From NCBI GenBank assembly GCA_009996515.1, contig JAACZV010000019.1, forward strand, positions 1 to 64,000: 64,000 nucleotides of DNA. The letters are read 5' to 3'. The notes beneath the pieces were generated by a model. It saw only the letters and a list, made by a program, of their open reading frames with translations. It had not been told where the DNA came from and searched no databases. A program made the position numbers and the translations under genes. Positions 1,651 to 56,473 of the stretch are shown here, one piece after another. The first letter of the stretch is position 1; the number at the start of each line of letters is the position of its first letter. The DNA is from Comamonadaceae bacterium (GTDB lineage Bacteria > Pseudomonadota > Gammaproteobacteria > Burkholderiales > Burkholderiaceae_C).

Positions 1651-1754
1651 CCCCTCGTCCAAGGAGTCCCTTGGCCGGCCCCCCGAGGGCACGGCGATGC
1701 TTGCCGGATTGACCGGCAAGCGCATCGCCATGGCGGGCCCGGCGCTCGCCCCGC
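1651..1754 (+). repeat. Gene-end structured repeat, copy 1
   Basis: First of five related intergenic elements in the window. It starts 2 nt after the cyclase stop, in the same orientation, with CCCCTCGTCC. It contains hairpin A (CCAAGG-AGTC-CCTTGG, 1659-1674), a CCCCCCGAGGG block, and hairpin B (1693-1729). In hairpin B, GGCGATG pairs with CATCGCC, the inner stem is CTTGCCGG/CCGGCAAG, the loop is ATTGA and the 2-nt bulge is CG. The tail GGCCCGGCGCTCGCCCCGCAA lacks about 17 bp present in copies 2-4. It fills the spacer before hemH and probably acts at the RNA level as a 3'-end or processing structure (inference). Confidence 0.75.
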
Positions 1755-1777
1755 AATCACCACCCGTCGCATCTGAC

Positions 1778-2872
1778 ATGGCCTTTCTTCCCGAACCGCC
1801 GCAGCGCCACGGCGCCGCGCCCGCCACCGACGTCGCCGTCCTGCTGTGCAACCTCGGCACGCCCGAGGCACCCACCGCGCCGGCGCTGCGCCGCTATCTG
1901 GCCCAGTTCCTGGCCGACCCGCGCGTCGTCGAGATCCCCAAGCTCGTCTGGGCGCTGATCCTGCACGGCATCATCCTGCGCGTGCGGCCGGCCAAGTCGG
2001 CCGCCAAGTACGCCAGCATCTGGACGCCCGAGGGCTCGCCGCTCAAGGTGTGGACGACGAAGCAGGCCAAGCTGCTGCAGGGCTACCTCGGTGAGCGTGG
2101 CCTGCGCGTGAAGGTCGCCATGGCCATGCGCTATGGCGAGCCGGCCATTGCCGCGCAGCTCTCCGCCCTCAAGCGCGACGGCGCCCGCCGCGTGCTGGTG
2201 CTGCCGGCCTACCCGCAATATTCAGGCGCGACCACGGCCAGCGTCATCGACGACGTGGCACGCTGGACCCTGCAGACCCGCCACCTGCCCGAGCTGCGCT
2301 TCGTCAACCGCTACCACGACGACTCGGGCTACATCGCCGCCCTGGCCCAGACCGTGCGCGAGCACTGGCAGCGCGAAGGCCGCGGCGACAGGCTCGTCAT
2401 GAGCTTCCACGGCATGCCCGAACGCACGCTGCACCTGGGCGACCCCTACCACTGCGAATGCCTGAAGACCGGCCGCCTGCTCGCCGAGGCGCTGGGCCTG
2501 AAGGATGGCGAATGGCTGGTCACCTTCCAGAGCCGCTTCGGGCGGGCCAAGTGGCTGCAGCCCTACACCGAGCCCAGCCTGGTCAAGCTGGCCACGGGCG
2601 GCGTGAAGGCGGTGGACGTCATCTGCCCCGGCTTCGCGGCCGACTGCCTGGAGACGCTGGAGGAAATCAACCAGGAGGCGCGCGCCGCCTTCCTCGCCGC
2701 CGGCGGCGAGCGCTTTGGCTACATCCCCTGCCTGAACGACCACCCGGCCGGCATGCGGGCCCTCGCCGACCTCGCCGAGCGGCACCTGCAGGGTTGGCCG
2801 CCGGCCGCCCCGCACGCCGACACGCTGGCCCTGCAGCGTCAGCGCGCCTTGGCCGCCGGAGCCCGCGAATGA
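1778..2872 (+). CDS. hemH: Ferrochelatase
   Basis: Inserts Fe2+ into protoporphyrin IX, the last step of protoheme synthesis; cytoplasmic or membrane-associated. At 364 aa it has the family hallmarks: N-terminal VAVLLCNLGTPEAPTAPALR, AYPQYSGATTASV, the active-site stretch SFHGMPERTLHLGDPYHCEC with the conserved His, and the Glu-containing C-terminal motif CLETLEEINQE. The frame is open upstream to an ATG at 1697, but that extension is only translated repeat copy 1, so I place the start at 1778, just before FLPEPPQ. The 3' end overlaps hslR by 4 nt (ATGA), implying translational coupling. Confidence 0.95.
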   Translation: MAFLPEPPQRHGAAPATDVAVLLCNLGTPEAPTAPALRRYLAQFLADPRVVEIPKLVWALILHGIILRVRPAKSAAKYASIWTPEGSPLKVWTTKQAKLLQGYLGERGLRVKVAMAMRYGEPAIAAQLSALKRDGARRVLVLPAYPQYSGATTASVIDDVARWTLQTRHLPELRFVNRYHDDSGYIAALAQTVREHWQREGRGDRLVMSFHGMPERTLHLGDPYHCECLKTGRLLAEALGLKDGEWLVTFQSRFGRAKWLQPYTEPSLVKLATGGVKAVDVICPGFAADCLETLEEINQEARAAFLAAGGERFGYIPCLNDHPAGMRALADLAERHLQGWPPAAPHADTLALQRQRALAAGARE

Positions 2873-3291
2873 GCCAGGCCCCGGCGAGCATGCGCCTGGA
2901 CAAATGGCTGTGGGCCGCACGCTTCTACAAAACCCGGGCCCTGGCCGTGGACGAGATCAACCTGGGCCGGGTGCGCATCGCCGGCCAGCCGGTCAAGCCG
3001 TCCCGGGACGTCAAGGTGGGCGACCTGCTGACCTTGCGCACGGGCGCCGTGACCCGCGAGGTGGCGGTGCTGGGCCTGTCTGCCCAGCGCGGCCCGGCAC
3101 CGCAGGCCCAGGCGCTGTATGCCGAGACTCAGGCCAGCATCACCGCCCGCGAGGCCGCCGCCGAGGCCCGCCGCCTGGCGCCGGAACCGGCGGCCACCAT
3201 CGTCCAGGGCCGGCCGACCAAGCAGGACCGCCGCCGCCTGGCGGACTGGGATCGCTGGTCGGCCTCGCTGGATGATGAAGATCCGGGTTAA
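2869..3291 (+). CDS. hslR: Heat shock protein 15, S4-domain ribosome-associated RNA-binding protein
   Basis: Small basic protein (140 aa) of the Hsp15 family, which binds free 50S subunits carrying a stalled nascent chain and helps recycle them. The N-terminal S4 domain is clear (MRLDKWLWAARFYKTR, then INLGRVRIAGQPVKPSRDVKVGD), followed by a charged C-terminal tail with PTKQDRRRLADW. The start is fixed by the ATGA overlap with the hemH stop and by the S4 motif lying a few residues in. It sits directly upstream of the sigma-32 promoter and grpE-dnaK-dnaJ, consistent with heat-shock linkage. Confidence 0.9.
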   Translation: MSQAPASMRLDKWLWAARFYKTRALAVDEINLGRVRIAGQPVKPSRDVKVGDLLTLRTGAVTREVAVLGLSAQRGPAPQAQALYAETQASITAREAAAEARRLAPEPAATIVQGRPTKQDRRRLADWDRWSASLDDEDPG

Positions 3292-3318
3292 CCCGGATCA
3301 TCCGTTTCGAATTCCCCT

Positions 3319-3346
3319 CTTGAAACCGGGACATTGCGCCCCATGT
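3319..3346 (+). promoter_or_regulatory. Sigma-32 (RpoH) heat-shock promoter for grpE
   Basis: CTTGAAA at 3319-3325 and CCCCATGT at 3339-3346, separated by exactly 13 bp. Both match the RpoH consensus (CTTGAAA, CCCCATnT), and the start codon of grpE is about 26 nt beyond. No CIRCE (HrcA) element was seen here. Confidence 0.85.
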
Positions 3347-3371
3347 CGACGCGAACCCAATCCTGGATGCC

Positions 3372-54759: not shown

Positions 54760-54800
54760 GGCTGTTGTCAGTTCCGAAATCACGGCATCCACGCCCCGCT

Positions 54801-54880
54801 TCGGGCTTGCGCCTGCCGGCTGAACCGGCGGACACAAGCCGCCCCGCGGGAGCGGCCAGGCTGCTGCCTGGACGAGGGGC
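54801..54880 (-). repeat. Divergent member of the gene-end repeat family, copy 5
   Basis: On the minus strand it begins GCCCCTCGTCC and has hairpin A CCAGGC-AGCA-GCCTGG and a CCCGCGGGGCGGC block. Hairpin B (54804-54840) has changed its outer stem to GGCTTG/CAAGCC, with loop TTCAG inside GCCGG/CCGGC. Unlike copies 1-4 it does not follow a stop codon; it lies between the divergent kinase and argH starts, in the kinase leader. Confidence 0.6.
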
Positions 54881-54931
54881 TCGATAATCCCGGCCGCGGC
54901 GCATTGTGCGCGCTGATTTCCCCGCTGCCCC

Positions 54932-56329
54932 ATGTCTGACAACCAACTCGCCAACAAATCCCAAGCCTGGTCCGCCCTGTTCTCCGAACCCATGAGCGAC
55001 CTGGTCAAGCGCTATACGGCCAGCGTGGGTTTCGACCAGCGCCTGTGGCGGGCCGACATCGCGGGCAGCCTGGCCCATGCCGAGATGCTGGCCGCGCAGG
55101 GCATCCTGAGCGCCGAGGACCATGCGGCCATCCAGCGCGGCTTGAACGACATCGCCGCCGAGATCGAGGCCGGCCAGTTCGAATGGAAGCTGGACCTGGA
55201 GGACGTGCACCTCAACATCGAGGCCCGCCTGACCGAGCGCGTGGGCATCGCCGGCAAGCGCCTGCACACCGGCCGCAGCCGCAACGACCAGGTGGCCACC
55301 GACGTGCGGCTGTGGCTGCGCGGCGAGATCGACGAGATCGCCGGGCTGCTGACCGCGCTGCAGCGCGTGCTGGTCGAGAAGGCCGGCGAGCATGCCGACG
55401 TCATCCTGCCGGGCTTCACCCATCTGCAGGTGGCCCAGCCGGTCAGCTTCGGCCACCACCTGCTGGCCTATGTGGAGATGTTCGCGCGCGACGCCGAGCG
55501 CATGCTGGATGTGCGCAAGCGCGTCAACCGCCTGCCGCTGGGCGCCGCGGCGCTGGCCGGCACCAGCTACCCGCTGGACCGCGAGCGCGTCGCCGCCACG
55601 CTGGGCATGGAAGCGGTGTGCCAGAACAGCCTGGATGCGGTCAGCGACCGCGATTTCGCGATCGAGTTCAGCGCCGCCGCGTCGCTCGTCATGCTGCACA
55701 TCTCGCGGCTGTCCGAGGAGCTGATCCTGTGGATGAGCCAGAACTTCGGCTTCATCACGCTGCCCGATGCCTTCTGCACCGGCTCCAGCATCATGCCGCA
55801 GAAGAAAAACCCCGACGTGCCGGAGCTGGCGCGCGGCAAGACCGGCCGCGTGGTGGGCCATCTGGTGGGCCTGGTCACGCTGATGAAGGGCCAGCCGCTG
55901 GCCTACAACAAGGACAACCAGGAGGACAAGGAGCCCTTGTTCGACACGGTGGACACCTTGAAGGACACGCTGCGCATCTTTGCCGACATGCTGGCCGGCC
56001 TGGCGCCCAAGCCCGAGGCCATGCGCGCCGCCGCCTTGCGCGGCCATGCCACGGCCACCGACCTGGCCGACTACCTGGTCAAGAAAGGCCTGCCCTTCCG
56101 CGACGCACACGAGGTGGTGGCCCATGCCGTGAAGACGGCGACCGCGAAGGGCGTGGACCTGGCGGCGCTGTCGCTGGACGAGTTGAAGGCCTTCGACGCC
56201 CGCGTCGAGGCCGATGTGTTCGACGTGCTGTCGCTGGAAGGCTCGCTGAACGCCCGCAACGTGCTGGGCGGCACCGCGCCGGCCCAGGTGCGCGCCCAGG
56301 TGGCCCGCCACCGCACGCGGCTGGCTTGA
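54932..56329 (+). CDS. argH: Argininosuccinate lyase
   Basis: Cleaves argininosuccinate to arginine and fumarate, the last step of arginine synthesis; cytoplasmic homotetramer. The 465-aa protein has the fumarase-superfamily signature [12 protein letters not shown], the conserved [17 protein letters not shown], and TGFTHLQ-like [13 protein letters not shown]. The start ([14 protein letters not shown]) matches the family. Repeat copy 4 begins 5 nt after the stop, before the hemerythrin gene. Confidence 0.97.
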
Positions 56330-56334
56330 ACAAG

Positions 56335-56473
56335 CCCCTCGCCCAACCTCGCGTCGCTGAACGCGCGCGAGTCCGGTCGGTCCCCCGAGGGGACGGCGAT
56401 GCTTGCCGGATCGACCGGCAAGCACATCGCCAGCGCGGGCCGGCTTGGGAGCGGCCCGGCGCTGGGCCCGCAG
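56335..56473 (+). repeat. Gene-end structured repeat, copy 4
   Basis: Plus orientation, beginning 5 nt after the argH stop with CCCCTCGCCC. Hairpin A is replaced by a CTCGCG...CGCGAG stem. The block TCCCCCGAGGGGACGGC leads to hairpin B (56395-56431): GGCGATG/CATCGCC base, CTTGCCGG/CCGGCAAG inner stem, ATCGA loop, CA bulge. The tail reads GGCCCGGCGCTGGGCCCGCA. It ends about 18 nt before the hemerythrin start. Confidence 0.75.

Follow-up and report, generated by a model that had tools for sequence, protein, structure and literature searches.

Oriented hairpin repeats directly after stop codons in Roseateles-group bacteria: a dispersed family with a proposed translated bridge in operons

The stretch of DNA analysed here (the window) comprises 64,000 nucleotides (nt) from a Comamonadaceae bacterium (assembly GCA_009996515.1, contig JAACZV010000019.1, positions 1 to 64,000) and carries four copies of a hairpin repeat, each lying directly after the stop codon of a gene. 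As read from the sequence, the 5' end of this element is found some 0-13 nt downstream of a stop codon, whichever of the three it is, on the strand of the gene that ends there, in four Roseateles-group genomes and in other genera. With a probability of roughly 0.55, we read it as a dispersed, oriented, mosaic family of hairpin repeats, resembling repetitive extragenic palindromes (REPs) and miniature inverted-repeat transposable elements (MITEs), that occupies the point of translation termination and has a proposed stop-proximal role together with a translated bridge. In operons, judging from reading frames, the element looks like a translated bridge and not an insulator; what it does and how it spreads we infer from these patterns. 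An original prediction, made from the letters of the window alone, had described the four elements and attributed them to mRNA 3'-end formation, processing or uncoupling of adjacent genes, or to a mobile element that targets gene ends. The observation is confirmed, and the interpretation is partly supported.

Size and distribution of the family

A nucleotide search of the genome with the fourth window copy gave 41 matches, and 40 candidates were scored. A covariance model built from 25 long copies was used for the genome scans. At E<=0.001 it located the element at no fewer than 87 places in the 4.58-Mb genome to which the window belongs (the own genome), a lower bound since 150 of 11759 candidates were scored. 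The three congeners hold at least 144, 121 and 107 places each (E<=1e-5). Further copies had been expected genome-wide, and they were found there and in relatives. In a sample of the genus, all 20 genomes, the own one included, gave matches, and none of the 20 non-genus genomes of the same sample did. A wider draw from the family, made with stricter filters, yielded the element in 33 of 299 genomes (the own genome and the three congeners included) and in 19 of 141 genera. An exact 47-nt pattern occurs in 18 contigs, of which 17 are titled Pelomonas or Roseateles and one is a Burkholderiales metagenome-assembled genome.

Searched against plasmid and phage collections, copy 4 gave no match. A viral-contig collection contained one exact match to the pattern (L377, 905-965, minus strand) on an 11.3 kb contig, which may be host DNA. 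In other genera the element also forms tandem arrays that repeat every 143-154 nt or so, for example at G188:C1:379710-380458 and G269:C19:36411-36836; in the arrays at L385 and L393 it is the first unit that adjoins the stop.

Position and orientation relative to genes

In the own genome 86 of the 87 places were classed, the second of two adjacent matches on contig C15 being dropped. Sixty-one lie between tandem genes and point the same way as these, 5 lie between tandem genes and point the opposite way, 19 are at convergent junctions and 1 is at a divergent junction; a same-strand gene stands upstream of 80 of the 86. This placement differs from random scatter in both orientation (61:5 at tandem sites) and spacing, as the original prediction had held. 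The congener analyses used the 30 best-scoring copies of each genome (of 144, 121 and 107) and gave a similar distribution: 53 tandem same-way, 5 opposite, 29 convergent, 2 divergent and 1 unclassed, with a same-strand gene upstream of 82 of 90. The distance from the stop to the first CCCC of the element is 0-13 nt in 76 of the 79 copies measured. In ten other genera (30 loci, 12 genomes), 19 copies are tandem, 8 convergent, 2 opposite and 1 unclassed, and 27 of the 30 stand behind a same-strand gene. For 24 of these 27 the gap to the start of the model match is -2 to 10 nt; two of the remaining three belong to tandem arrays, where they follow a first member that abuts a stop.

The convergent junctions are sites where operon logic cannot apply. 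Here the 5' gap is at most 11 nt in 45 of 48 cases, compared with 24.8 on average and 34 at most when copies were placed at random in the available space (5000 placements). The 3' end lies that close to the opposing gene in 16 of 48. In tandem pairs the median distance to the next start is 30 nt.

The identity of the stop codon does not explain the position. The adjoining stop is TGA in 107 of 132 cases and in 195 of 249 other genes (p=0.60), and at 21 of the 25 TAA or TAG sites there is no TGA between stop and element. Adjacency is thus independent of the stop codon used, and TGA is not the target. Young copies had suggested that TGA serves as a DNA target and is duplicated; this idea fails on the same two counts. 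Among own-genome copies whose gene stops elsewhere, 11 of 48 have TGA at -5 to -3 of CCCC, and TGAAG is therefore part of the repeat in some copies; this count leaves out 20 of 86 copies that have no anchor pattern.

A reading frame across the element

Many tandem copies have a start codon overlapping or touching the stop of the upstream gene; the frame that it opens spans the element and stops at the start of the next gene. For the frame, stop-codon and phase analyses, copies were dropped if they had no CCCC anchor or if their gap fell outside about -5 to 15 nt (many of these had extra 5' hairpins), which left 42 of 61 tandem copies from the own genome and 49 of 53 from the congeners (91 in total). 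In the own genome, 18 of 33 open frames that bear a start end within 4 nt of the next start, as against 6 of 46 other open frames (p=1.4e-4). The three congeners, compared after the idea had been formed on the own genome, gave 28 of 44 against 5 of 39 (p=1.9e-6). Where there were several candidate starts, the nearest was taken, alike for all frames. Counted per copy, the frame reaches the next start and ends there in 46 of the 91, fuses in frame with the next gene in 9 and ends within 30 nt before that start in 9. Uncoupling of adjacent genes had been proposed for the element; the reading frames suggest the reverse.

Convergent copies, which serve as the internal control, differ from tandem ones in these respects. 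A start codon is present at the stop in 62 of 87 tandem versus 16 of 45 convergent copies, and the frame of that start is open across the element in 60 of 87 versus 8 of 45 (p=1.8e-8). Frame 0 is open in 79 of 87 versus 32 of 45 (p=0.005), and the phase from CCCC to the last hairpin is kept in 31 of 53 versus 5 of 24 (p=0.003).

The element frame continues into the next gene at L036, L040, L293, L343, L376 and L392. In the genes after these six copies, a repeat-encoded N-terminus may precede an apparent signal peptide or pilin leader. Another idea, in which a terminating ribosome opens CCCCTC and thereby frees an internal ribosome site (GAGGGG..ATG), was considered and set aside as weakly supported; in 30 of 67 tandem copies the next gene shares the frame of that ATG, and the bridge itself accounts for part of this.

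Several points weigh against the reading preferred here. The association is weaker in other genera, where 11 of 17 start-bearing and 4 of 17 other open frames end near the next start (p=0.037; this count and that of T-runs below leave out 7 of 30 other-genus loci). Among the 91 tandem copies, 15 lack a start codon at the stop and 12 others can be classed neither as coupled nor as fused; in the window, copy 2 is without a bridge. The phase from CCCC to the GGGG before the middle hairpin does not differ between the two kinds of junction (49 of 60 tandem, 30 of 37 convergent), nor does the openness of frame 1 (72 of 87 and 36 of 45). The copies share ancestry, and the p-values, which ignore kinship, overstate their independence. 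Many copies share a left end of the TGA.RTGAA..AGCCCC kind, and a right end, ATGGACAACTGA, with an in-frame TGA, is common to young copies; given these shared ends, the match to the next start may in part reflect inheritance instead of selection. Codon positions are without clear constraint in the middle module, where variable sites change as pairs. All three reverse-strand frames are open in 84 of 136 copies, and the bridge therefore does not explain the fixed orientation. The genes around the copies were called with a purpose-made codon-usage caller trained on 13 open reading frames (ORFs) of the window. Tandem copies facing the opposite way also occur (5 of 86 in the own genome, 5 of 90 in the congeners).

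In seven of these ten opposite copies (L033, L084, L115, L116, L301, L353 and L371) the 5' end lies 2-4 nt away from an opposite-strand start codon, and their GAGGGG could, from its position, be the ribosome site of that gene.

The four elements of the window

The four copies and their neighbours are as follows.

683..1648, plus strand: guanylate cyclase and FHA protein (Pfam PF00211, PF00498), upstream of copy 1; stop TGA at 1646-1648
1650..1755, plus strand: element copy 1 (L110), with a short first hairpin and a shortened last hairpin; model match C19:1643-1741
1645..1776, plus strand: bridging ORF of copy 1, ATG over the cyclase stop (ATGA), TGA 1 nt before the ferrochelatase ATG at 1778
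1778..2872, plus strand: ferrochelatase (PF00762), downstream of copy 1
38183..39109, minus strand: porphobilinogen deaminase (PF01379 and PF03900, matched on a longer ORF; start from the codon-usage caller), downstream of copy 2
39151..39270, minus strand: element copy 2 (L092), with a short first hairpin; a stop without a start codon, hence no bridging ORF by the criterion used
39273..41498, minus strand: tryptophan halogenase (PF04820, PF20043), upstream of copy 2 and downstream of copy 3
41526..41727, minus strand: element copy 3 (L108), with a short first hairpin and extra inserted hairpins
41508..41738, minus strand: bridging ORF of copy 3, ATG over the cupin stop (ATGA), stop 9 nt before the halogenase ATG
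41735..42718, minus strand: cupin-like protein (Cupin_8, PF13621), upstream of copy 3
54932..56329, plus strand: argininosuccinate lyase, argH (PF00206, PF14698), upstream of copy 4
56335..56473, plus strand: element copy 4 (L035), with a long first hairpin
56326..56490, plus strand: bridging ORF of copy 4, TTG over the argH stop (TTGA), TGA 1 nt before the ATG at 56492
56492..56965, plus strand: hemerythrin-domain protein (PF01814, E 4.4e-10), downstream of copy 4

All four adjoin a stop in the orientation of the gene that it ends and separate two co-directional genes (4 of 4), as had been described. The distances from stop to first CCCC in copies 1 to 4, read directly, are 1, 2, 7 and 5 nt; the range is thus 1-7 nt and not the 2-7 nt given before. 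The common architecture also stands in the main, with pairwise identities of 81-91%: copy 2 shares 83% over 98 nt with copy 4 and 81% over 94 nt with copy 1, and copies 3 and 4 share 91% over 58 nt. It is not uniform, since about half of the last hairpin is gone from copy 1 and copy 3 has additional hairpins within the first module; with these extra 5' hairpins, copy 3 lies outside the 91 tandem copies of the per-copy frame count. At gathering thresholds, Rfam matched two tRNAs only in the whole window and none of the four elements. The two tRNA genes, on the minus strand at window positions 34608-34967, lie within a 107-nt repeat (94% identity), 253 nt apart.

Anatomy and fold

The element is about 120-200 nt long, and the consensus of 25 copies measures about 140 nt. 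Its 5' module consists of an outer stem CCCCTCG/CGAGGGG, which begins at the stop, around a hairpin that comes in two forms, one long and one short (CCAAGG/CCTTGG). The middle module, P2, is a hairpin GGCGATGC..GCACATCGCC with a variable inner stem, and the 3' module is a final hairpin CGGGCC..GGCCCG. In the 25 copies, 94.2% of the cells of this hairpin structure are paired and 13 pairs are changed on both sides, compared with means of 89.5% and 6.4 in shuffles, none of 500 of which reached either observed value. Pairing in the same copies falls to 34-40% when the partners are slid. The pairs changed on both sides are confined to two inner hairpins; the outer stem and the last hairpin are nearly invariant and so give little information on structure. 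The RNAalifold consensus, on which the covariance model (R1) was built, differs from the hairpin structure counted for covariation.

Some copies have extra hairpins inside the first module. A nested mosaic is visible by eye in eight copies (L066, L076, L079, L085, L087, L096, L104 and L109), where a second hairpin unit (like CTGGAGTCGGACAC..GCAGTCCCTGCGGACTGC) lies within the last hairpin. In genome G009 several copies have a longer 3' tail that ends in ATGGACAACTGA or near it.

Gain, loss and mobility

Elements are gained and lost at gene ends, in agreement with the mobile part of the original prediction. At the argH junction the element is present in one of 18 congeners read (L129); the others mostly have a short spacer or a start overlapping the stop, and some have other sequence. 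When 22 gene ends of the own genome were compared with six congeners, an element in either orientation was near the stop at 20 of 110 orthologous junctions, and at the L052 junction all six relatives have an overlapping TGATG. Recent dispersal is indicated in G009, where identity between copies at different genes reaches 98.6%. Occupation of 20 of 110 junctions and the near-identical G009 copies imply that sites change within the genus and that, at these junctions, the stop exists without the element. Presence and absence at orthologous positions together with near-identical paralogues are the marks by which gain and loss of a dispersed repeat are recognised, and both were found. What appear by eye to be degenerate remains occur at a few further junctions (L183, L191, L212 and L250).

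Comparison of the sequences to the left and right of 46 coupled junctions gave a weak excess, 461 matches against 433.7 +/- 14.4 after shuffling, with 62 of 2000 shuffles as high, and no clean target duplication was seen at L359 or argH when these were set against the element-free sites of relatives. The proposed link to a REP-associated transposase (RAYT) was not found: the parent transposase was sought via Y1_Tnp only, this family has a match in all 20 genus genomes (the own included), and the four searched of 40 listed Y1_Tnp loci had no good element match beside them (only E 0.36 and 0.87). The own genome has RAYT-like Y1_Tnp matches at G000:C11:72187-72513 (L176) and C21:88650-88934; L176 is without a good element match nearby.

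Comparison with known repeats

According to PMC12306157, Escherichia coli REPs lying up to 15 nt from a stop are reported to stall ribosomes and lower translation (Liang et al., 2015, cited there), and 446 of 4072 predicted REPs lie in this stop-near zone, with 260 of 496 in an earlier study that it cites. The element here resembles these stop-near REPs in having a hairpin no more than 15 nt from the stop. It differs in that nearly all measured copies lie in the zone and in one orientation, and in being longer, mosaic and often crossed by a reading frame. For other genomes, PMC3733652 places REPs close to upstream 3' ends, within 20 bp, and describes GTAG and CGTC REPs as palindromes of 20-40 bp, mostly downstream of ORFs, between unidirectional or convergent genes. 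The element is likewise palindromic, multi-copy, mostly downstream of ORFs and near upstream 3' ends, but it is 120-200 nt long, with several hairpins and without the tag and stem of that class. No GTAG end is conserved in the consensus of 25 copies. A CGTC REP is defined in the same paper by a CGTC tag followed by a stem of 8-9 bp that starts with A-T pairs; short forms of the element read CGTCCAAGG..CCTTGG, with a stem that starts with C, and long forms mostly have CGCC.

Since REPs generally lie near upstream 3' ends, the position of the element is a known tendency at its extreme. Adjacency and orientation go far beyond intergenic scatter, in this genome and in others. The earlier statement that such placement is unlikely for ordinary REPs was too strong, given the REPs near 3' ends elsewhere that PMC3733652 describes.

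Among palindromic repeats that remain open, the closest precedent is set by the Rickettsia palindromic elements. These are described in PMC10969869 as lying inside ORFs, measuring about 150 bp and having an open frame that is compatible with the host genes. The present element is also palindromic and open, and 9 of 91 tandem copies fuse in frame; unlike the Rickettsia elements, it lies at stop codons and mostly forms a separate, coupled frame. Bacterial MITEs are described in the same review as short, dispersed, structured and without a transposase gene, all of which holds here, but no terminal inverted repeat, target duplication or parent transposase was shown for the element. Within the terms and the library searched, no description of a one-orientation rule, an any-stop rule or a tandem-specific bridge was found in the literature, nor any literature on such an element in this group.

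Alternative explanations

A purely selfish element, with insertion machinery directed to gene ends and with structure and frames as by-products, would account for the presence and absence at orthologous junctions, the near-identical G009 copies at different genes, the patchy spread over 19 of 141 genera and the conserved ends of young copies, as well as for stop adjacency at convergent and tandem sites alike. We consider it rather unlikely: no target motif was found, stop codons occur at background frequency and TAA or TAG sites mostly have no intervening TGA, the junctions read have no clean target duplication, the four RAYT-type loci gave no transposase link, and the missing open start frame at convergent sites is not predicted. 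Ordinary repeats of the REP or bacterial interspersed mosaic element (BIME) kind, placed only by purifying selection against insertion elsewhere, would fit the dense packing of genes here and the REPs within 20 bp of upstream 3' ends described in PMC3733652. This is improbable, because available space alone does not yield the result at convergent junctions and because neutral orientation predicts similar numbers of the two tandem orientations, where 61:5 and 53:5 were observed.

A Rho-independent terminator, or another module that ends transcription of the upstream gene, is suggested by stable GC hairpins right after stops and by the 48 of 162 copies at convergent junctions. Yet a T-run follows the element in none of the 162 copies, most copies lie in tandem pairs a short way before the next start, and at least two copies of the own genome, L041 and L081, have, by eye, a separate terminator-like hairpin downstream. 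A strict terminator-hairpin script found such hairpins within 150 nt at 3 of 162 copies, its criterion being too strict to inform. Intrinsic termination, as a form of the mRNA 3'-end formation once proposed, is thus very improbable. We give as little credence to a mobile gene that encodes a functional microprotein (about 45-65 residues). In its favour are the open frame matched to flanking genes and the C-terminus, which is MDN or similar in several young copies from more than one genus. The frame used varies from copy to copy and with it the encoded peptide, P2 has no clear codon-position pattern, the few bridging peptides tried had no match in Pfam or NCBIfam, and the start is mostly missing in convergent copies. 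With no domain and no clear codon pattern, a functional peptide was rejected; differing peptides, the codon positions and the lack of a family match point to translation of the RNA, not to a protein function.

Proposed mechanism and implications

Most probably the element acts as translation ends: a hairpin stack that starts 0-13 nt from a stop codon is positioned within, or right at, the footprint of a ribosome during termination. On the reading preferred here, that of an oriented repeat family at the point of translation termination, the mRNA would carry the hairpins where the upstream cistron ends, and a terminating ribosome would encounter them there. They may tune release or recycling and 3' decay, by analogy with E. 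coli REPs within 15 nt of stops. Copies in operons might be tolerated, or retained, because ribosomes reinitiating at the stop would read across the element and be passed on to the gene that follows, and the peptide of the bridging frame seems immaterial. Going further, and more tentatively, at a little short of even odds, the element might be a mobile mini-cistron that enters operons at a stop, with a start on the upstream stop and a stop on the downstream start that are brought along or soon selected; ribosomes would be passed through the fold, and the frame would be kept at tandem sites and decay at convergent ones.

With at least 87 to 144 copies per genome in four genomes, the family is a natural experiment on a stable fold right after a stop codon, for which empty orthologous junctions in sister species serve as controls. 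If the bridging frames are translated, seemingly extragenic repeats would be coding links in operons. The annotation of REP-like elements and of short intergenic frames would then change, as would ideas on how operons tolerate insertions.

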